Below are positions 6,348-19,384 of a stretch of 28,361 nucleotides of DNA, piece after piece (the first letter of the stretch is position 1; each line of letters begins with the position of its first letter). Where the stretch lies: positions 1 to 28,361 of IMG/VR virus record IMGVR_UViG_3300027573_000963. One strand, written 5' to 3'. The notes beneath the pieces were generated by a model. It did no database searches, was not told the origin of the DNA, and was given only the letters and a program-made list of their open reading frames with translations. The DNA is from a virus. The position numbers were made by a program, and so were the translations under genes.

Positions 6348-7097
6348 TTACCTCAAATAACTAAAATCTTTTGAATATTTTCCTGATAATATAAACGACC
6401 TGATTTCTTGTGGAGTTGAAATATATCCCATATAGTATATTGGGATAAAACTGCATTCCTCGTGAGACTCGCCCTTTTCGTCCTCTTCTTCCCAACAATC
6501 GGTTTTAAGAGGCTCTACTGAACGAACGACCCCGAATACTTTGCCATCCATAGTAAAGGCGCCTCCACCACTGCTACCAAATACTACTCCAGCACTTACT
6601 TCCCAAGTTAAGACACTTCCACGATATCTAACCTTTGAACTAATTATACCCTTTTTGAGTGATCTATATCTATAATTAGGATTGGCACCTATAAAAATAT
6701 CATCGCCTAATTCTGGATCACTATCTGCGTTGGCTATATCGGAGTGAAATAAAATTCTTCCAGGATGTATTTCTAAAAGAGCCAAATCATTTAACTCATC
6801 GAATATTAAGTTTTCTACTCGATATTTGTCCAAAAAAGGCACACCATTTATAACATATAGAAACATCACATAGATATCTCCATCGGGCTCTTTTTCTATA
6901 GAATCTTGGATTACATGGTAGGCGGTTAGCACCAGTGATTTATCTGAATCAGACTTTACCACTACACCAGAGGAGGTATTTACTATAACTACGGACTCCA
7001 TTATTTGAGCTGGTGATTTTACTTTCTTGCTCTCTTTGCCTAACGTTACTACTACTAAACCAAACATCAACAGTGCGGTTAAAATACTCCTGAGCAC
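6348..7097 (-). CDS. Secreted trypsin-like (HtrA-type fold) serine protease
   Basis: The 249-aa protein begins with a signal-peptide-like segment (MLRSILTALLMFGLVVVTLG, 1-20), then a chymotrypsin-fold protease domain with an apparently complete triad: His61 in LTAYHVI, Asp104 in ELNDLALLEI, Ser176 in FGSSGGGAF. A DGKVFGVV strand follows as in the family. Two Cys near 199 and 215 flank an acidic loop and could form a disulphide in the periplasm or outside the cell. There is no PDZ domain, unlike HtrA/DegP. Start is GTG, with GAGAGGT inside the end of dnaJ, two bases before. It probably acts in the cell envelope; the substrate is unknown. Its place between dnaJ and recA is surprising. A lipoprotein is unlikely because I see no lipobox Cys. 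Confidence 0.85.
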   Translation of the reverse strand: MLRSILTALLMFGLVVVTLGKESKKVKSPAQIMESVVIVNTSSGVVVKSDSDKSLVLTAYHVIQDSIEKEPDGDIYVMFLYVINGVPFLDKYRVENLIFDELNDLALLEIHPGRILFHSDIANADSDPELGDDIFIGANPNYRYRSLKKGIISSKVRYRGSVLTWEVSAGVVFGSSGGGAFTMDGKVFGVVRSVEPLKTDCWEEEDEKGESHEECSFIPIYYMGYISTPQEIRSFILSGKYSKDFSYLR

Positions 7098-7099
7098 GA

Positions 7100-8137
7100 T
7101 TACCTCTCATCTAAATTTTTTAATTTTATGAGTAACTCTCTTTCTTCGTCTGAGAGCTTTTTAGGTATTTTAACCTTAATAAACACCAAGTGATCTCCCT
7201 TTAAATTAATTCCTTTATGATTCACCTTTAATATAGAACCTGATTGGGTTCCTGCTGGGATAGCTATCTTTTCATTTCCGTGTATCGTATCTGTTATAAT
7301 TTCTTTTCCAAGTATGGCATCTAAATATGATATCTCTTCTTCAGATTGTATATTTGATCCTACTTTTTTAAACTTAGCGTGAGGAGTAACATGCATAGTA
7401 AAATATAAATCGCCTGGTCGTCCAGCATCGATATCACATGGGGCACCTTTACCATTTAATCTTAGTGACATGCCATCGTCTATTCCAGGTGGTATAGTAA
7501 GCTTTATTTGTTCTGTTTTAGCTTTTTGACCTAGACCTAAACAATCCTTACATTTTTCTAAAATCGAATATCCATTTCCAAAGCAATCTGGACAAGTTCT
7601 CACTATCTGCATAATGCCCTGACGTTGGCCCACCTTACCTTGGCCGCCGCAGCCCTTACAAACAATAAGATTAGTGCCATCCTTGGAGCCGTTGCCCTTG
7701 CAAGAAGCGCATCCTATAGGCCTATCTATTTGAATATTTTTAACACAACCTAGGGCAGCTTCCATAAAATCTATAGTGAGATTTTTGTATATATCTTCGC
7801 CCTTCAATTTTTGTCTTCGGTTGCCGCGATTAAACAGCTGATCGTAATAATCATCGCGCCCAACTGTTTGTCGTAATATCTCTTCTAGATCTTCTTGGCT
7901 TATATTTTGATTATGTTGGGGCCTTCCAGAAGTATTACCAAATTTATCGAATTGCTCTTTTTTCTTTGGGTCGCTTAATATTTCATAAGCGGCAGTTACT
8001 TCTTTGAATTTTTCTTCGGCCTTGGGGTCGGGGTTGCGATCTGGGTGGAGTTCAAGCGCTAACTTCCGGTATGCTTTCTTTATTTCGTCGGGAGTTGCGT
8101 CCTTTTTTAGTCCTAGTGTTTCGTATGGGTTTGTCAT
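7100..8137 (-). CDS. dnaJ: DnaJ (type I Hsp40) co-chaperone
   Basis: DnaJ delivers substrates to Hsp70 (DnaK) and stimulates its ATPase. All type I parts are present in 345 residues: J domain (1-68) with HPD at 31-33, a short polar linker rather than a long Gly/Phe region, four CxxCxGxG zinc repeats (C143/C146, C160/C163, C182/C185, C196/C199), and the C-terminal substrate-binding domains with [16 protein letters not shown] (231-246). Bacterial DnaJ is about 375. No dnaK or grpE is in the window, so it presumably works with host DnaK. The start overlaps the end of ruvC by 86 bases; this is required because the J-domain begins there. The ribosome binding site (AGGG) is modest. Confidence 0.96.
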
Positions 8138-10791: not shown

Positions 10792-13700
10792 TTACATCGC
10801 TCCAATATTATTATTTTCTAATCGTTCCAATACTAGAGAATTAGCACCATTATAGGAATTGATTTTGCAAACTGCTCTAACAGGTTTTCCTATATCAAGC
10901 AATTCTTTATATTTATTCCATTGTTCTGGCCAAACAGTTAGTTGAACGGCATCATTATTTAGGTCCATCAACACTACTTTAGCAAACACTCGGCCCTTAT
11001 TCTTGCCATTTTTAAGCTTCATCTCTTTAATATCAGAAACAATTGATTCTGTTCTTATTAATACACCTTCTGTCATGGTTTTAACCCGTGTTAGTGGAGT
11101 TACGCCCTTACCAGTAAAGAAACCATTATACACATCATTAATATTACCAGAAATGTATTCACCTAGGGTAACTTTTTCGCCCTCAAGCTTTTCTCTCATT
11201 GCAAATTCTTCTTCAAGTCCATCGCAAGTGAAGGTAAAACCCTTTAAGCGGTCTAACTCATCTATACCTTCTTCGGCCTTACCATTGCCATATTTGTTAG
11301 CTTTGGTTCTAATATCCTGATAAAAAGTCCAGGCGGCCTTGCGGGTTATGCCTAATTTATCAAAACACCCGGCCAATGCCAGAGCTTGAATAACGTTCTT
11401 CTTAACAACTCTAGAATTAGTTCTGTATAAGAAGTCAGCAAAGTTCTTGAATGGTGCCTTATTGCGGGCTTCCATTATACTTTGGACGGCTGAACCACCA
11501 ACGCCCTTTACAGCGTCTAGACCAGTTACGATAGTATCCTTGGTTAATACTTTGAAAGAATATCCACTGAAGTTTATGTCAGGTTGTATAATCTTCAAGC
11601 CCAAACGTTCTGCTTCTTTCTTGTAAGCTCTGATATTAGAATCACGAGCAGTTGAATTTTTATTGGTTTCGGCCTGTAAAACTGCCGCCATAAATGCTGC
11701 CGGAAAGTAGTGCTTGTAGTAAGCGGTATGATAACCATTAATACTATAAAATATTCCGTGTGCCTTATTAAATCCATAGCCAGAGAATGGTTCTATAATG
11801 CCATCCCAAATATTAGCAACTTCATGTTCTTGAAGTTTAGCATGCTTCATACCATCGGCTATAAATTCAGCTCTTAGTCTGATTGCCAAGTCTTTACCCT
11901 TTTCTTTTAGTTTGGTAAGCTTGCGCAATCCGTCAGCTTTATTTAAATCCCATCCAGCAACCGCATTTGCTAATTTTGCTAGTTGTTCCTCATATACACA
12001 TTCGCCAAGTGTTTCAGCCAAGGGTGCTCTCAAACACTCATATTTGAATGATACCTTTTCTTTACCATCTCTTCTTGCAATATAAGTTTCGCGAGATTCT
12101 TTGGCAGATGGACGACCAAGGGCATTAACCAAACTTAAATCTTCTATACTCTTTGGCTTGATTTGCTTGCACAAGGCCTTCATGTGAGACGATCCCATTT
12201 GGAATACACACATTGTTCTGCCCTTAGCAATATCATCCCAAACTGCCGGGTCGTTAAATTTAATGTCTTCTGGGCTAGGACAATCCATTCCCAACAAGCG
12301 AGCATTCTCGATAGTATTTTCAATAATACGAAGATGCTCTAAACCTAGTAAGTCCATTTTAATAAGACCCATTTCTTCGCAACGATTCTTTTCATATTGA
12401 ACTGCAATCGCGCCGTTTTTATCTATCCTTAACGGAACATAAGTTGGTAAAGCAATATCACTAATTACTATACCAGCTGCATGAGTTGCGTAGGCCTTCT
12501 CTAATCCAACTAACTTTCTTCCAAATAATTCAAGTTCAGGATATTTAACACAAAATTCAGCAAACTCTTTTGAGCTCTTGAGGGCATCATCTATTGTTTG
12601 AGCTTCTTGCGGAATAGTATCGGTAATCTTATTAGCAATTTTAAAGGCTTCGCTTTTACTACCGCCCAATTCAAGGGAGCGGGCAATGTCTTTAATAATT
12701 ACTTTCGGGGTCATTCTGCTCAAATTAGAAACGTGAGCAACCTTATCCTTACCATATTTATTGATTATATATTCTTCGACCATATCTCTGCCATTGGAAC
12801 TGAAGTCAGAATCAATATCTGGAAACGATTTCTTTTCTTTATTATGAAAACGTTCAAACAACAACCCGTATTCTAATGGATCTACTGCGTGAATACCTAG
12901 TAGATTTCCTACTAGAGAGCCACCTACAGAACCACGGCCTGGACCTACAAGGATGTTCTTGCTCTTTGCGAACTTAATGAAGTCGGACACAATCAACATA
13001 TAAGAGCAGAAATTATGCATCTCAAGAACTTTAATCTCATCCATCATTCTCTGGATATACTTCTTTTTGTCTTCACCTTTTAGATGTCCGAATTTATTCT
13101 TAAATCCTTCTACACAGCGATAGCGCATGAAAGCATGCTCTTCTGGAACAGGCTTATCAAACTTTTGAGCTGCATACCATTTTTGGAACTTGGGATAATC
13201 TGATTCACTGACGAAATCGAACTTCGGAAATCGTGCTTCTTTAACGTCTAGATAAGTAGGCTCTACACACTTATTACCTATCTCTACTGTATTGTCACAA
13301 ACTTCGGTGGCAAATTCTTTACCAAATTTTTCTACGAAGTGATTAAAGATTATAGAACGATCCTTCATATAGAATTCTTCTACTTCGTATCTATGACGAG
13401 TCTTATCGCTGACGGGCGCCTTAGAAGATATGGCCATCAATACATCGTGTGCCTTGGCATCTTCTTTGGTCAGATAATGAATATCTGCAGTAGCAACTAA
13501 TTTAACACCGAGTGACTTACCTATTTCAATAAGTTGCTTATTGATGTGATTTTGATCTACTACTATCTTTTCTTTACCATCTTTGGATAATTCAATTTCG
13601 CCAGTTCTTCTATTTCTAGCCACTATATGTAAATTATGTGGCTGAACCTCAAGATATAAATTATCTTTGAATATTTTCTTTAGGCGCTCCACTGTGCATA

Positions 13701-14208
13701 AAGCATTAGTATGACAAGAATCTTCTAGCCAACGTCCTTCATCATCATGAACGAACATTTGTCTGGACACTAATCCACTACCACAGGCCGTTAGACAAAT
13801 GATACCCTCATTGTATTTTTCGAGCATATCCCAATCAATTTTTGGAAACACTTTGCCCAATACAGCTACGTATTGAAAGTTAGTATAACCTTCATAGTTT
13901 AGCATCAACAGATTTCTATAGCCAACTTCATTGCTTGCTAGTAGAACTATATGACGTCTCTTCTGTTCTTTGTCCTTCACATCATCAACGAAATAAGCTT
14001 CCATGCCAGGAATATACTTAACTCCGTGTTTCTTGGAGGCCTTACGAGCATCAAATACCGCTGCCATAGTACCATGGTCGGTAATTGCTAGTGCTGGCTG
14101 CCCTATTTCAGCAGCCCTTTTAAACATAGCATCTACATTGGTCATAGCATCTTGCATACTGCCTATAGATGTGTGTGCATGTAAATGAACGAAATTATCT
14201 GTTGCCAT
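10792..14208 (-). CDS. dnaE: DNA polymerase III alpha subunit (DnaE-type replicative polymerase)
   Basis: This is the phage replicase (1138 aa from the ATG at 14208; ATG 14217 and GTG 14220 are in-frame alternatives, but 14208 gives the TAAgATG junction seen elsewhere here). Domains in order: PHP (about 4-260), the family C polymerase core with the catalytic metal ligands in FPDIDSDF (Asp464, Asp466) and MDLLGLEHL (Asp619), the GPGRGS loop (423-428), a helix-hairpin-helix region (about 880-960), and a C-terminal OB fold (about 1045-1130). All nine usual PHP metal ligands seem present: His8, His10, Asp20, His45, Glu70, His86, Cys142, Asp242, His244. This suggests built-in 3'-5' proofreading, and no separate DnaQ is seen. 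Sliding clamp and loader genes are not in the window. Confidence 0.97.
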   Translation of the reverse strand: MATDNFVHLHAHTSIGSMQDAMTNVDAMFKRAAEIGQPALAITDHGTMAAVFDARKASKKHGVKYIPGMEAYFVDDVKDKEQKRRHIVLLASNEVGYRNLLMLNYEGYTNFQYVAVLGKVFPKIDWDMLEKYNEGIICLTACGSGLVSRQMFVHDDEGRWLEDSCHTNALCTVERLKKIFKDNLYLEVQPHNLHIVARNRRTGEIELSKDGKEKIVVDQNHINKQLIEIGKSLGVKLVATADIHYLTKEDAKAHDVLMAISSKAPVSDKTRHRYEVEEFYMKDRSIIFNHFVEKFGKEFATEVCDNTVEIGNKCVEPTYLDVKEARFPKFDFVSESDYPKFQKWYAAQKFDKPVPEEHAFMRYRCVEGFKNKFGHLKGEDKKKYIQRMMDEIKVLEMHNFCSYMLIVSDFIKFAKSKNILVGPGRGSVGGSLVGNLLGIHAVDPLEYGLLFERFHNKEKKSFPDIDSDFSSNGRDMVEEYIINKYGKDKVAHVSNLSRMTPKVIIKDIARSLELGGSKSEAFKIANKITDTIPQEAQTIDDALKSSKEFAEFCVKYPELELFGRKLVGLEKAYATHAAGIVISDIALPTYVPLRIDKNGAIAVQYEKNRCEEMGLIKMDLLGLEHLRIIENTIENARLLGMDCPSPEDIKFNDPAVWDDIAKGRTMCVFQMGSSHMKALCKQIKPKSIEDLSLVNALGRPSAKESRETYIARRDGKEKVSFKYECLRAPLAETLGECVYEEQLAKLANAVAGWDLNKADGLRKLTKLKEKGKDLAIRLRAEFIADGMKHAKLQEHEVANIWDGIIEPFSGYGFNKAHGIFYSINGYHTAYYKHYFPAAFMAAVLQAETNKNSTARDSNIRAYKKEAERLGLKIIQPDINFSGYSFKVLTKDTIVTGLDAVKGVGGSAVQSIMEARNKAPFKNFADFLYRTNSRVVKKNVIQALALAGCFDKLGITRKAAWTFYQDIRTKANKYGNGKAEEGIDELDRLKGFTFTCDGLEEEFAMREKLEGEKVTLGEYISGNINDVYNGFFTGKGVTPLTRVKTMTEGVLIRTESIVSDIKEMKLKNGKNKGRVFAKVVLMDLNNDAVQLTVWPEQWNKYKELLDIGKPVRAVCKINSYNGANSLVLERLENNNIGAM

Positions 14209-14209
14209 C

Positions 14210-14557
14210 TTACTCATCACCTAAAACTATACTAATGTCTAACTTTGTAGTCATCCACTCGGCTAATTTTTTATCAAATTCAATCTTTCGATCGATTGTT
14301 TGCAAATCTGCTATATCCAATTCTTTTGGCATAGAGAATTTAACAATATTTTTTTCTAACTTGCCTTCGATTGTAAATCCATCAGGAGATTCTATTTTTA
14401 ATAATCTAATAGAGCCTAACGGATATTTTGGCGATCCAAAACTGGTCATATACTTTACAATATCTTTATCTATTCTACAAGGTAAGGTATATTGTAAATT
14501 TACGCAGGTTGAACATCTGGTTCTTTCTACTTTTACTACTTCAGAAAATTGGACCAT
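14210..14557 (-). CDS. Unknown 115-aa protein upstream of dnaE
   Basis: ATG start with a GGTGG site 5 bases upstream. It has three Cys near the N-terminus (C15, C18, C27 in RCSTCVNLQYTLPCR) that may bind zinc with another ligand, followed by a beta-rich middle (GSIRLLKIESPDGFTIEGKL) and an acidic end. It begins only 17 bases after the terminator at 14575-14608, so it and dnaE need read-through or an overlapping promoter. One base separates its stop from the dnaE start. No family recognised. Confidence 0.78.
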   Translation of the reverse strand: MVQFSEVVKVERTRCSTCVNLQYTLPCRIDKDIVKYMTSFGSPKYPLGSIRLLKIESPDGFTIEGKLEKNIVKFSMPKELDIADLQTIDRKIEFDKKLAEWMTTKLDISIVLGDE

Positions 14558-14614: not shown

Positions 14615-14833
14615 TTAGGATTTCTTTGCTACAAAAAGGGAGAGACCGACTTCGGTTTCCCCGGTAGCGTGATCTAGTAATGCTTTCATTACCTGACCAA
14701 CATCGCACTCGCCGGCTGTGATTTCTGCTACGCTTGCTTCGAGAACTACGCGCAACTTTTCATCTTCCTTGCCTTTCTTTACTGAATAATTTAATACCTT
14801 AAATCCACCTACTGCTTGCTTTACATCACTCAC
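14615..14833 (-). CDS. Unknown 72-aa protein
   Basis: A GTG start overlaps the trigger factor stop (GTGA) with AGAGGT upstream. The small protein is predicted alpha/beta: a strand FKVLNYSVKKG, a strand KLRVVLEASV, a helix VGQVMKALLDH, and a closing strand VGLSLFVAKK. Last gene before the terminator at 14575-14608 and coupled to trigger factor. No family recognised. Confidence 0.75.
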   Translation of the reverse strand: MSDVKQAVGGFKVLNYSVKKGKEDEKLRVVLEASVAEITAGECDVGQVMKALLDHATGETEVGLSLFVAKKS

Positions 14834-16119
14834 TTGCTTACCTCTTCTGCGCCTTTAGAGCGCTCTATAATAAAATCAATTACCTTCTTTGCTCTTAATA
14901 CATGAACAAAGGAATCCATTTGTTTGGTGTTATACAACATACTCACAAATTCGTCTTTTGTCTTTTGATACTTAGTAGCAAACTCTTCTAACAACTTGTC
15001 TAGTTCATCTGGATTAATTTCCATACTTGGCTCTTTATCATAAACAGCATCTATTAGTATAGAGCGCTCTGCATTGTATTTAGCCAATCCCTCTATGCTT
15101 TTTAAAAGAGATTCATTAACTTGGTCAGCCTTAACCCCAGCCTGTTGAAGTATTTTACTTTGCTCAACTCTTATCATAGAGTCTGGAACATCCACTTTAT
15201 TAAGAGTCTTGAGCTTGTCTATAATTTGCTTTTCGATTTGAGCACGAAATCTGCTTTCAATCTCTTGCTTTACATCACCCCTTAATTTGGCTTCCATCTC
15301 TTCTACAGTCTGATGCCCAACCATAAGAGCCAAATCATTATCTACATTGGCTAGCTTACTTTCAATTATTGAATGAACCTTAATTTCAAAATCAGCTTCT
15401 TTCCCTGCTAAATGTTTAGCCTTGTAATCTTCTGGGAATTTAACCTTAATGGTCTTAGTTTCTTCTGCCTTCATACCAACCATTTGTTCTTCAAATCCTG
15501 GTATGAAATTAGATTGTCCTAATTTGTTAATGGCATATCCTTCTGCCGAGCCACCATTAAAAGGCATACCATCCAACATGCCTTTAAAATCTATTACCAG
15601 AGCATCACCTAATTGAGCGCCACGGTCAGTTATTTGAATTCTTTCAGCAAACTGCTCACGTTGGGTCATTAACTTGGTTTCATATTCTGCTTGTTCATCG
15701 AATGTTGGCTTTTCTAATACAAGACCGTCATATCCCGTTGGGTCTAGTTTTGGCAACACATCGACTAGTATATCTACAGTGTATGAGTTATCTTTATTAA
15801 ATACTCCGGGATATTGAGCATCATTACTTAAATTATCGAAAGTTGGATTTCCTACAGGATTAATGTTGTTGTCTCTTATTACTTTAGTATATTGTTCTGA
15901 TAACAACATCTGAGATACGGTAGATTTAGCACGATCGCCGAAATGAAGCTTTAGGGCACTAACTGGAACCTTACCCTTTCTAAATCCATTTATCTGAACG
16001 TCTTTCTGTATGCTTCTAAAAAATTCATCAAATTTCTTATCTACATTCTCGGCGGATATTGAAATAGATATTTTCTTTTTAATATTGCTTACGTCTTCTA
16101 TCTTTACTTGGTCTTCCAT
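14830..16119 (-). CDS. tig: Trigger factor (ribosome-associated chaperone and prolyl isomerase)
   Basis: Trigger factor docks at the ribosomal exit tunnel and shields nascent chains. The 429-aa product matches the cellular length (E. coli 432) and all domains: an N-terminal ribosome-binding domain with the signature GFRKGKVP (45-52), an FKBP-type prolyl isomerase domain (about 168-251) with GDALVIDFKG and NFIPGFEEQMVGMK, and a C-terminal helical substrate-binding domain (252-429). The docking signature is intact, so it should compete with host trigger factor on ribosomes. ATG start with GAGGT 12 bases upstream; it overlaps the next gene by four bases. Phage-encoded full-length trigger factor is unusual; together with IF3 and DnaJ it suggests management of phage protein synthesis and folding (inference). 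Confidence 0.96.
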   Translation of the reverse strand: MEDQVKIEDVSNIKKKISISISAENVDKKFDEFFRSIQKDVQINGFRKGKVPVSALKLHFGDRAKSTVSQMLLSEQYTKVIRDNNINPVGNPTFDNLSNDAQYPGVFNKDNSYTVDILVDVLPKLDPTGYDGLVLEKPTFDEQAEYETKLMTQREQFAERIQITDRGAQLGDALVIDFKGMLDGMPFNGGSAEGYAINKLGQSNFIPGFEEQMVGMKAEETKTIKVKFPEDYKAKHLAGKEADFEIKVHSIIESKLANVDNDLALMVGHQTVEEMEAKLRGDVKQEIESRFRAQIEKQIIDKLKTLNKVDVPDSMIRVEQSKILQQAGVKADQVNESLLKSIEGLAKYNAERSILIDAVYDKEPSMEINPDELDKLLEEFATKYQKTKDEFVSMLYNTKQMDSFVHVLRAKKVIDFIIERSKGAEEVSK

Positions 16120-16127
16120 TTGTATTC

Positions 16128-16850
16128 TTACCTCTTCATATTAAGTTGATTCATAAATTGACTTCTATAACGGTCTAGTTGTTTTTCAAAAGCACCACCG
16201 CGAGGAATGCCACGATCTGTTGATTGTTCAATCCTTTTAGGGTCTAATAGTTTCAGTCTCTTTAGTTCGTCTAGTTTAGCAATCCAGAATCTATATATTG
16301 ATTCTTTATTTGGAGCAAATTCATACTTTGTTCTTAAACTACCCACAGCATCAATTACTGGTAAAGCCGAATCTTGTGATAGGCTATTGTAATAATCAGA
16401 TACTGCCGCTTTTAAAGCCCATCTTTCCAGCCCTGTTGGGGTTGGTTTAACAGATTGGCGAGACCATTCTTCATTAGCATTATTCTCTAGTATTTCCTTT
16501 AAATGCCCTAGAGTTGGTAGTGCTATTGGCTGCTGCGGAACTGCTTGTGGTGCAACAGCCGGATCTACCAAATTTTGTTCCATCGCAGATGTCTCTATAC
16601 CAAGTTCGGCAGTGATTGTCAAGCAGTCAGAGCAATTATCTGAGCCATCGTGCCTGGTTTCATGAATAAATTCAAGGATTTCCCTTGGACTATAAATATT
16701 TAAGTCCGCGTTAATTATGGCACGTTCTAGGGCCATTCTTTTAAATATATCTATACGTCTAGCAAAGTTAGAACCCTTTAACTGCTTATCGTATTTAATT
16801 AGATTTTTTCTTGCTAAAATCTTATGTTTTTTAACAAAGTCATTTAACAT
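16128..16850 (-). CDS. Unknown 240-aa protein between sigma factor and trigger factor
   Basis: The start is taken as ATG 16850, one base after the sigma gene stop (TAAcATG); an in-frame TTG at 16862 would overlap it. The ribosome binding site is weak. Three parts can be seen: a basic helical N-terminus (1-70), a linker rich in Ala, Pro and Gln (about 100-113, VAPQAVPQQPIALP), and a helical C-terminal half with FWIAKLDELKRLKLLDPKR and an Arg-rich end. A CSDC pair is near residue 75. No catalytic motif, signal peptide or membrane helix. A virion or scaffold protein or an adaptor are equally possible; no family recognised. Confidence 0.8.
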   Translation of the reverse strand: MLNDFVKKHKILARKNLIKYDKQLKGSNFARRIDIFKRMALERAIINADLNIYSPREILEFIHETRHDGSDNCSDCLTITAELGIETSAMEQNLVDPAVAPQAVPQQPIALPTLGHLKEILENNANEEWSRQSVKPTPTGLERWALKAAVSDYYNSLSQDSALPVIDAVGSLRTKYEFAPNKESIYRFWIAKLDELKRLKLLDPKRIEQSTDRGIPRGGAFEKQLDRYRSQFMNQLNMKR

Positions 16851-16851
16851 G

Positions 16852-17691
16852 TTATAAACCAAATATTTCTTTTATTTTTTTATTCTTTCTTAGATTTTTT
16901 AATTTTATATTAGCTCCAGCATTAGATATACCAGCTTCTGCTGCCGCTTCTTTAATCGAATAATCATGAAAACAAATTAATTCAATTACCTTAATCATCC
17001 TGGGGTCTTCATCCTTAAGCCATTCTCTAAAGTCATGTCTAGATATAATGTTATCTTCGCTTAAGTCTTTTGGATCCCCGAATATATTAGTGTTTTTTAT
17101 CATATTCTCTGTAGTATGCGGATAGGACTCATCTGATATTTCCATAGCACTTTCTATAGGAAGTTCGGCATGACTAATTGCTCTTTTGGCCGCTGTGCCT
17201 AAACTAGAGCCGCATTCAGCGCATTCTCTATCTGACATATCTTCATCTGAATTTAATGTTATAGAAAAAGAACCACCACAAGAGCAAGTGACCGTATAGC
17301 TTTGGACATTCAACATAGTAGCGTTTCTATAAAATCTACTGTCATCTCTTATCTCATTTATGAGTCTTCGATTAATTCTCATCTGTAAGAAAGTGGATAG
17401 TTTGATTTCTTTTCTTGGATCAAATTTGGACATGCCCTCTATGATATGCAGAGACACATGCTGTTTGGCGTCCTCAAATGTAAAACCACTAAAATTATAT
17501 TTAGTTGCCAAATATTTAATAAGCTTGGACATCTTAACTATTATTTTATCGTATCCAGTGCCATCCCTAGTATCTACATAGATAGCCTCATTATCGACAG
17601 TAATCCATCCAGCAAAACCAAGATAATCATTTGTATTAGTATCAGTAAAGATTTCTAATTCTTTATCTTTATTTGCGTTAATAGTTTTCAT
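16852..17691 (-). CDS. Sigma-70-family factor with inserted zinc ribbon
   Basis: Sigma factors direct RNA polymerase to promoters. Residues 52-120 match sigma region 2 (a core-binding helix ending in SKFDPRKEIKLSTFLQMRINRRL, then INEIRDDSRF). Residues 215-275 match region 4, with a helix-turn-helix DYSIKEAAAEAGISNAGANI. Between them, where region 3 would be, is a zinc-ribbon-like insert: CSC at 136-138 and CAEC at 157-160. The N-terminal 50 residues are acidic and lack a classical region 1.1. Length (279 aa) is larger than T4 gp55 (185). It probably drives middle or late phage promoters. ATG start, AGGAG overlapping the stop of the upstream nuclease gene. Confidence 0.85.
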   Translation of the reverse strand: MKTINANKDKELEIFTDTNTNDYLGFAGWITVDNEAIYVDTRDGTGYDKIIVKMSKLIKYLATKYNFSGFTFEDAKQHVSLHIIEGMSKFDPRKEIKLSTFLQMRINRRLINEIRDDSRFYRNATMLNVQSYTVTCSCGGSFSITLNSDEDMSDRECAECGSSLGTAAKRAISHAELPIESAMEISDESYPHTTENMIKNTNIFGDPKDLSEDNIISRHDFREWLKDEDPRMIKVIELICFHDYSIKEAAAEAGISNAGANIKLKNLRKNKKIKEIFGL

Positions 17692-17699
17692 TCATTCTC

Positions 17700-18494
17700 C
17701 TACCATGCTGTATGGGCTGGACAAATTTCTTTAAAATCACACCAATTACAGAGCTTAGATGGAACTGGCACCCAAGTGTTTTCGGCGCCTATTTTCTCCG
17801 CATAACCTATAACTTGCTTCTCTGTTTTATCTAAATCAAAGGCATTAAATTCATATTCTTTGTATTTTGAGTTATGTCTCAATAAAACATAAGATGCCTT
17901 ATAACTGTCTATGTTTCCAAATTCTTGTCTTAACCATAAGCCGTAGATTAGCAATTGAAATGGTTCTAAATAATATTCATTCTTAGTTGTTTTATAATCA
18001 ACTATATGAAATCTTCCATCTTTAATAACATCTAAACGGTCAATGAACCCTCTTATAAGAATATCCTCTCTTATCTTGAAGGTAAAGGCACTTTCTACGC
18101 CCTTAACCATTGGCATACCTGACTTGGATACATTCTTTAAATACCCCATCAATAGATTGTAAGCCTCTTCAATCATCTTGTCTTCTAGTTTCTTTCCTAA
18201 TGAGGCGCGAGCTTCAGTGAAGGCATGTTTCATTAGCTTACTTAATGAACCCTTATTGGTACCCTCTTCCATGTATATTTTATGGAAGACCTCTAAAGCC
18301 TTGTGGCAAAGATTACCTAAATCGAAATGATCCCATTCTTTCTTTGGAGCCTTTTCAATATAAGTAAAAAAATACTTACGAGGGCATTGTTCATAGGTCT
18401 TCATGGCACTTGCTGATAACTTGATTATCTGGGGCTCTTTATCGTGCGCTTCGTCTATTATTTCTTTTTCCCCATCTACAATTTTTAATGTCAT
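17700..18494 (-). CDS. PD-(D/E)XK exonuclease of the Cas4/RecB family with Fe-S cysteines
   Basis: The 264-aa protein has the RecB-nuclease core: the ASAMKTYEQCPRKYFF start (28-43), a GNLCH motif with His64, GFIDRLD with Asp152, VDYKTTK with Asp166 and Lys168, and QLLIYG with Gln180 and Tyr184. Four cysteines in the Cas4/AddB arrangement (Cys37, Cys249, Cys252, Cys258) should bind a 4Fe-4S cluster that closes the nuclease domain. Such enzymes resect DNA ends; in phages they serve recombination or host DNA degradation. There is no CRISPR array or cas1 in the window, so an adaptation role is not supported. AAAGGA site before the ATG; two short gaps link it with the sigma and virion-like genes. 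Confidence 0.92.
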   Translation of the reverse strand: MTLKIVDGEKEIIDEAHDKEPQIIKLSASAMKTYEQCPRKYFFTYIEKAPKKEWDHFDLGNLCHKALEVFHKIYMEEGTNKGSLSKLMKHAFTEARASLGKKLEDKMIEEAYNLLMGYLKNVSKSGMPMVKGVESAFTFKIREDILIRGFIDRLDVIKDGRFHIVDYKTTKNEYYLEPFQLLIYGLWLRQEFGNIDSYKASYVLLRHNSKYKEYEFNAFDLDKTEKQVIGYAEKIGAENTWVPVPSKLCNWCDFKEICPAHTAW

Positions 18495-18502
18495 TTTTTC
18501 CT

Positions 18503-19384
18503 TTAAAAGCTAGTTTGTCTTCCGTCGCGACCCAACCATTTAAACACCAATGGTATAGTATAGAAAGAGCCGGTTAGCATGAAAATGTTACTTGGAAGGG
18601 TTTGTATATTTTTAACATATCTTCCTTCATTATGATCGAAGTAATAACCAACCATTGTATTAGTTTTTGGACTGTAGAATCGTCTAACGAAGCCGCCGCT
18701 GACATAAGTAGCTTGTGGGTCTCGTAGTCTTTTTCCGCCAAATTCTTTATAAATATTAGACAGGGAACCAAATGGTCTCGGCATTAACTTAACATCATTA
18801 TCTATTCTATTGTCTATGACTATCATTCGTGCGGTTGGATTGAAAAATTCTGCTTTTTCTGGAGTAGAGAAAGGTTGAAAATTATTATCCTCAAATGTAG
18901 GATTAGTATTTTCGTCTGGTATATTGACCTCTACAAGCAGTCCTAATTCTGTGCCATCAGCTTCGCGCTCGCTCTCTATAAAGTCATATTCAGATGGATC
19001 TACATCTAAGAAGCGAGCTGGTAAGCCATCAGCATCAAAGCCAGTTATAAGGTCAAATCCACTATTGGCCCTGTCTTGCACTATTCCCTCAGCAGATATA
19101 AACCTAGCAACATTTATACTAGTAACATCTGGCGCAAAGGTTTGTGTCAAAGTCGGACCAACTTCATCCTCACTATCAACACCAAAGGCACTTAAAGTAA
19201 TTGAATTGAATCCAGTTGGTAGTACAACACCATCTATATATATAGGAGAGTCTGGGGTAGGTGATGAGCCGTCTATAGTAAAATAAATTGTAGCAGGAAT
19301 ATTTGACTCTATAGTTACACTCTCAGGTATTCCAGAAGATATTTCTGTTTCAGACCTTATAAATGTAAGTGTAACTACGGCCAT
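18503..19384 (-). CDS. Probable virion-associated protein with chitobiase-like beta domain
   Basis: Residues 15-90 resemble the chitobiase/beta-hexosaminidase C-terminal-type domain (CHB_HEX_C), with ATIYFTIDGSSPTPDSPIY followed by a GFNSITLSAFGVD strand. Such immunoglobulin-like domains are common in surface and phage tail proteins. The remaining 200 residues are beta-rich with aromatic and Asn content, including YVSGGFVRRFYSPKTNTMVG, and show no catalytic motif. No signal peptide. A structural or receptor/baseplate role is inferred from domain type. Its location among replication genes is odd. AAGGA site 11 bases before the ATG. Confidence 0.8.
   Translation of the reverse strand: MAVVTLTFIRSETEISSGIPESVTIESNIPATIYFTIDGSSPTPDSPIYIDGVVLPTGFNSITLSAFGVDSEDEVGPTLTQTFAPDVTSINVARFISAEGIVQDRANSGFDLITGFDADGLPARFLDVDPSEYDFIESEREADGTELGLLVEVNIPDENTNPTFEDNNFQPFSTPEKAEFFNPTARMIVIDNRIDNDVKLMPRPFGSLSNIYKEFGGKRLRDPQATYVSGGFVRRFYSPKTNTMVGYYFDHNEGRYVKNIQTLPSNIFMLTGSFYTIPLVFKWLGRDGRQTSF

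Follow-up and report, generated by a model that had tools for sequence, protein, structure and literature searches.

A trigger factor gene in the replication block of a clade of uncultivated very large phages

Results

A complete trigger factor gene within a replication block

The window analysed here is the whole of a 28 kb IMG/VR virus record (28,361 nucleotides). All of its main ORFs lie on one strand, and the features described below are on the minus strand. Matches to Pfam and PHROG families identified ORFs for DnaE, RecA, an SSB-like protein, an FtsK-like protein, sigma factors, a uracil-DNA glycosylase and DnaJ, while RuvC-like, SbcCD and primase parts were recognised by reading the translations. 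The window is a replication block in which no structural gene was recognised, with the possible exception of the ORF at 18503..19384 (G18503). This ORF lies within the block, and its product, which has a CHB_HEX_C_1/Fn3_assoc domain, serves as a marker of the clade described below; the product had no match among 50,697 phage records. A tRNA search found none in the window and none in ten relative loci.

The trigger factor (TF) gene occupies 14830..16119 (ATG at 16119, TGA at 14832-14830) and encodes a full-length, three-domain protein of 429 aa. Upstream of it lies an ORF of 244 aa (16128..16862) that belongs to no Pfam family and adjoins TF throughout the group of relatives containing the window; a Shine-Dalgarno-like AAGAGG (16131..16136) is located within the end of this ORF, 11 nt 5' of the TF ATG. 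On the downstream side, a 72-aa ORF (14615..14833), 48-78% identical in relatives, begins with a GTG that overlaps the TF stop codon as GTGA, and through this overlap is predicted to be translationally coupled to TF. The constant neighbours further out are a DnaE-type DNA polymerase III alpha subunit downstream (10792..14220) and a PDDEXK nuclease upstream (17700..18494). A second chaperone of the block is a full-length DnaJ with J, zinc-finger and C-terminal domains (7100..8137). A trypsin-like protease ORF (6348-7097) adjoins DnaJ/RecA; it is kept in two relatives (L002 and L040) and unmatched in several others.

Pfam searches of the TF product detected Trigger_N, the predicted ribosome-binding domain, at 15697..16110 (residues 4-141; 97.9 bits against a cut-off of 22.2), an FKBP-type prolyl isomerase domain at 15376..15621 (residues 167-248; FKBP_C 54.8 bits, above the curated cut-off) and Trigger_C, the substrate-cradle domain, at 14863..15309 (residues 271-419; 66.5 bits against a cut-off of 22.7). 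The docking loop GFRKGKVP is encoded at 15964..15987 and comprises residues 45-52, equivalent to E. coli G43-P50. The NCBIfam equivalog TIGR00115 'tig' scored 310 bits against a cut-off of 180, and the top PDB relative by sequence search was E. coli trigger factor (E 4e-46, residues 4-426). An AlphaFold2 model of the protein (pLDDT 86) matched E. coli TF in Foldseek, including the ribosome-bound form, with TM 0.72-0.76, and aligned to 1w26 and 2vrh over 428 columns with the C-terminal cradle at full length. The isomerase pocket is intact, 5-6 of its 6 residues being kept in the window group. Identity is approximately 27% to E. coli TF, 29-37% to the best cellular matches and 44-57% to the TFs of seven syntenic phage contigs. 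This ORF is a genuine, complete trigger factor, chance being excluded, and the first-pass annotation, which gave no strand, was right that this phage trigger factor is full-length and that its ribosome signature is intact: the three Pfam domains and TIGR00115 pass their cut-offs and the GFRKGKVP loop is complete. By sequence, the window protein taken alone would be classed as a standard trigger factor and an ordinary member of the family.

Trigger factor occupies a conserved slot in a clade of very large phages

TF was found between the PDDEXK nuclease and dnaE in approximately 45 uncultivated phage contigs, the largest of 435 kb, all of them classed by IMG/VR as virus records. Contigs recovered by DnaE and TF searches share the order nuclease-sigma-ORF-TF-ORF-ORF-DnaE, and a profile search reached contigs whose TF is only 21-29% identical and still located between the nuclease and DnaE. 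In a non-circular search the PDDEXK nuclease and DnaE were used as queries instead of TF, and 24 of the contigs found solely by these probes have TF at this position. Whole-length searches of 14 contigs of 105-435 kb recovered a single TF from every one, and six of these 14 have Terminase_6N matches, mostly under the curated cut-off, 26-35 kb from TF. Whole-contig searches of six deeper relatives (L151-L155 and L174) found no TF; fragmentary contigs could account for such absences, but two of the six are at least 147 kb. These data indicate that TF is a long-standing single-copy core gene of a clade of uncultivated very large phages, and they bear out a distribution in large phages.

An assembly chimera or chromosomal contamination has precedents, as some public 'phage' records do carry a chromosomal TF (for example an Acinetobacter record with tig-clpP-clpX) and other TF matches are short, unverified gut scaffolds. 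The contigs described here, however, share a phage context, none has a TF near those of cells, and the neighbours of TF are same-strand phage genes whose ORFs overlap or almost abut. Synteny in approximately 45 contigs and the absence of a tig-clpP-clpX context exclude contamination for practical purposes, leaving it a negligible probability. The first-pass annotation was sound as to a full-length TF and its occurrence in large phages, and the chimera that it named as a possible refutation is rejected. Its further proposal, that TF serves large virion proteins, finds no support; TF lies in a replication/recombination block beside dnaE and not among structural genes.

Among named phages with TF, the INPHARED match examined in context was a chromosomal Acinetobacter record and the rest were unannotated or unverified scaffolds, so no named phage was counted as a cultured TF example. 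This Acinetobacter record, the 220 kb 'Acinetobacter phage' CAKLQH020000005.1 (L305), has tig-clpP-clpX and leuA aboard and is at least partly bacterial chromosome. The PHROG family phrog_26774, of unknown function, matches the window TF at full length with 218 bits but scores cellular TFs far higher (E. coli 407 bits, Geobacillus 396 bits); it was rejected as a known phage family, as it models a cellular-type TF and not the present phage clade. A fold search of BFVD returned nothing at E 0.001 or better.

Four further viral contigs (L026, L027, L029 and L158) have a TF outside the clade synteny and on long branches; that of L026 groups with a gut TF and the others are poorly placed. The neighbouring DnaE shows variation of its own. 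An in-frame insert in DnaE of two contigs (L005:9974-14755 and L016:10163-15067) matches Intein_splicing and LAGLIDADG_3 and is an apparent intein, with Intein_splicing above cut-off in L005 only. The DnaE reading frame appears truncated or split in L017, L020, L023, L025, L140 and L218, and several of these frames are interrupted near residue 820-830. The parts in L023 are abutting ORFs, and the interruptions could represent introns, split genes or frameshifts.

Distances between phage trigger factors track those between core genes

Pairwise distances between TFs tracked those between core genes over 42 contigs (Mantel r 0.96, 0 of 2000 permutations), and the correlation was 0.90 within the 33 distant members. 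In a tree of the 18503 protein and the nuclease, a single branch with support of 100 separated contigs with TF from those lacking it, such that one change is needed. A careful TF tree placed all cellular TFs on one side of a single branch (91/71; 92% of bootstrap trees), and the window group joined L013 and L150 at 99/89. The cellular sample consisted of the nearest hits, E. coli and gut contigs, with some phyla absent. Cellular TFs thus lie beyond one branch, and at 29-37% even the best match among them is distant from the window protein. Taken together, conserved synteny, the tracking of distances, the single change and the one-branch position of cellular TFs indicate that these phages have had the gene for a long time and passed it on mostly by vertical descent, and that it is not a recent capture.

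If related phages had each acquired tig separately at one genomic position, this would account for the low identity (21-29%) between the two main phage TF groups and for the moderate support (91/71) of the branch joining all phage TFs against those of cells. Such captures would have had to insert into the same slot between the same genes, whereas a single change suffices on the core tree, TF distances follow those of core genes and the careful tree puts no clade TF within any cellular group; we regard repeated capture as distinctly unlikely. The simplest reading is that the gene was acquired once, long ago, and inherited vertically thereafter, given a separating branch of moderate support and incomplete cellular sampling.

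The docking loop is kept where the isomerase pocket has eroded

The patterns of the first TF search included GFRKG, which would have biased motif counts, and docking-loop residues were therefore recounted on the contigs found via neighbouring genes. Gly43 and Arg45 (E. coli numbering) are invariant in all 45 clade TFs, of which 42 have Phe44 and 44 have Gly47. Among the 24 contigs recovered independently of TF patterns the corresponding counts are 21 and 23. The isomerase pocket presents a different picture. Of 37 distant members, 33 have a gap in the column of E. coli Pro196 and 33 have one in that of Tyr221. At the pocket columns the fraction of cells with the E. coli residue is 0.29, compared with 0.88 in cellular TFs and with 0.70 at the docking-loop columns. 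FKBP_C is above cut-off in L016 and L013, below it in L022 and absent in L024 and L028; Trigger_N and Trigger_C pass in L022, L024 and L028, and Trigger_C passes in all six members scanned with Pfam. The length of clade TFs is near-cellular in all members (401-433 aa), and a model of the L022 TF matched E. coli TF with TM 0.54-0.67. What has been retained is thus the docking loop together with the three-domain body as a whole, and not the isomerase site. Such a pattern argues for, but does not prove, work at the ribosome.

Two other functions may be weighed against this pattern. TF might act off the ribosome, as a chaperone or isomerase that mainly folds or assembles replication and recombination proteins (DnaE, SbcCD, RecA, SSB) after their synthesis, with the loop kept for some other reason. 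Its constant position within the replication block, next to dnaE and the PDDEXK nuclease, and the intact pocket of the window group would fit such a role. A chaperone of this kind has no evident need of GFRxGK, however, and the loop with its invariant Arg45 is kept across the clade while the pocket decays, so that an off-ribosome function seems unlikely. The second possibility is a decoy or competitor with little folding activity of its own, which would fill exit-tunnel sites so as to displace host TF, SRP or processing enzymes, and in this way slow the biogenesis of host proteins or weaken a host response. The docking loop is indeed the best-kept functional stretch, and since host TF has a functional link to ClpXP (PMC7804408), its displacement could have wider effects. 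Against this, an N-terminal domain alone would suffice for a decoy, whereas the C-terminal cradle is full length in all members and Trigger_C was recovered in each of those scanned; we consider a decoy function improbable.

Chaperone and translation genes accompany trigger factor

The 14 contigs of 105-435 kb frequently encode other proteins acting in translation and folding. DnaJ is present in all 14, ribosomal protein S21 in 13, peptide deformylase in 12, methionine aminopeptidase (Peptidase_M24) in five and GroEL in one; DnaK was found in none of them. Two large relatives without TF also have peptide deformylase, together with two GroEL each, and DnaJ and S21 are absent from both. Huge phages in general commonly carry S21 and peptide deformylase (PMC7162821). 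For this reason, and because deformylase also occurs in both large TF-less relatives, these two genes are supportive but not TF-specific. GroEL is thus present in the TF-less G017 and G018 (the contigs of L153 and L154) and lacking from 13 of the 14 TF contigs. This contrast between GroEL and TF/DnaJ points to a possible swap of folding strategy, on small numbers.

Discussion

The identity and domains of the protein, its docking loop, single copy number, synteny and co-diversification with core genes, and the persistence of the loop where the pocket has decayed, are best explained by an old transfer of tig from a bacterium to a huge-phage ancestor, after which it was kept as a core gene whose product would be a ribosome-docked chaperone acting on the nascent chains of the phage. 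We consider this account probable. E. coli trigger factor docks at ribosomal protein L23 through its GFRxGK loop. The phage protein would dock in the same way, via the loop and its Arg45, at L23 beside the exit tunnel, and during infection may take over some of the host ribosomes. There it would hold and fold phage nascent chains, which might then be passed to host DnaK through phage DnaJ, alongside phage peptide deformylase and S21. The ancestor of the clade would thus have taken up the gene long ago and its descendants kept it in single copy in the replication block. Isomerase activity would be an optional extra, retained, to judge by pocket residues, in the window's own group. The ribosome mechanism of the first-pass annotation, in which the phage copy would replace or compete with host trigger factor, is plausible in outline. 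That the conserved neighbours of TF are replication genes is also compatible with an off-ribosome role and counts against the ribosomal one.

A tentative extension, which we think possible but would not favour, is that S21, deformylase, sometimes methionine aminopeptidase, TF and DnaJ form a phage-specific nascent-chain system in which TF, without isomerase activity in most lineages, is a dedicated ribosome-docked holdase. If this were true, infected cells would hold two ribosome populations differing in their exit-tunnel factors.

Accounts of how phages take over translation usually concern initiation and elongation, through S21, tRNAs and factors. TF as a core gene of a broad huge-phage clade would extend such takeover to the exit tunnel, the site at which folding of nascent chains begins. 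The clade would also constitute a natural experiment, in which docking residues survive while the pocket decays, bearing on the purpose of the isomerase domain of TF.

No report of a phage-encoded trigger factor was found in the open-access papers searched, a scope that leaves out subscription papers, preprints and supplements. The term does not occur in the main text of PMC7162821 or in PMC12619734, nor do FKBP or peptidyl-prolyl terms in PMC7824862. For viral proteins of the Southern Ocean, a 2021 survey (PMC8407431) states explicitly that an analogue of trigger factor was not detected, and the trigger factor gene mentioned in PMC6811365 is a host gene flanking a prophage and not a phage gene. 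What is unusual in the present data is that huge phages have kept TF by vertical descent as a core gene, with pocket-eroded relatives; priority is not claimed.

Compared with bacterial TF (E. coli, PDB 1w26/2vrh), the window protein has the same three domains, the GFRKGKVP loop and a similar length (429 against 432 aa), but the bacterial gene lies in a tig-clpP-clpX context and the phage gene in a replication block with dnaE, and the distant phage relatives differ further in their degenerate isomerase pocket. The translation proteins of huge phages (S21, L7/L12, elongation factors and peptide deformylase; Al-Shayeb 2020, PMC7162821; Mizuno 2019, PMC6375957) are likewise viral copies of ribosome-associated host factors. 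They are thought to redirect host translation, and two of them, S21 and deformylase, are also encoded by TF contigs; they act in initiation or elongation, however, whereas trigger factor acts on nascent chains. Known phage chaperones, namely the GroEL, DnaJ/DnaK and Hsp20 of jumbo phages (PMC7824862) and those of moraphages (PMC12619734), are similarly phage-carried folding helpers and include DnaJ, but are ATP-dependent chaperones, co-chaperones or small heat shock proteins. Chloroplast Tig2 (PMC11731035) is a truncated TF derivative which, like the distant phage TFs, lacks part of the standard three-domain function; it has dropped whole domains, whereas the distant phage TFs lose pocket residues only and keep three domains in length.
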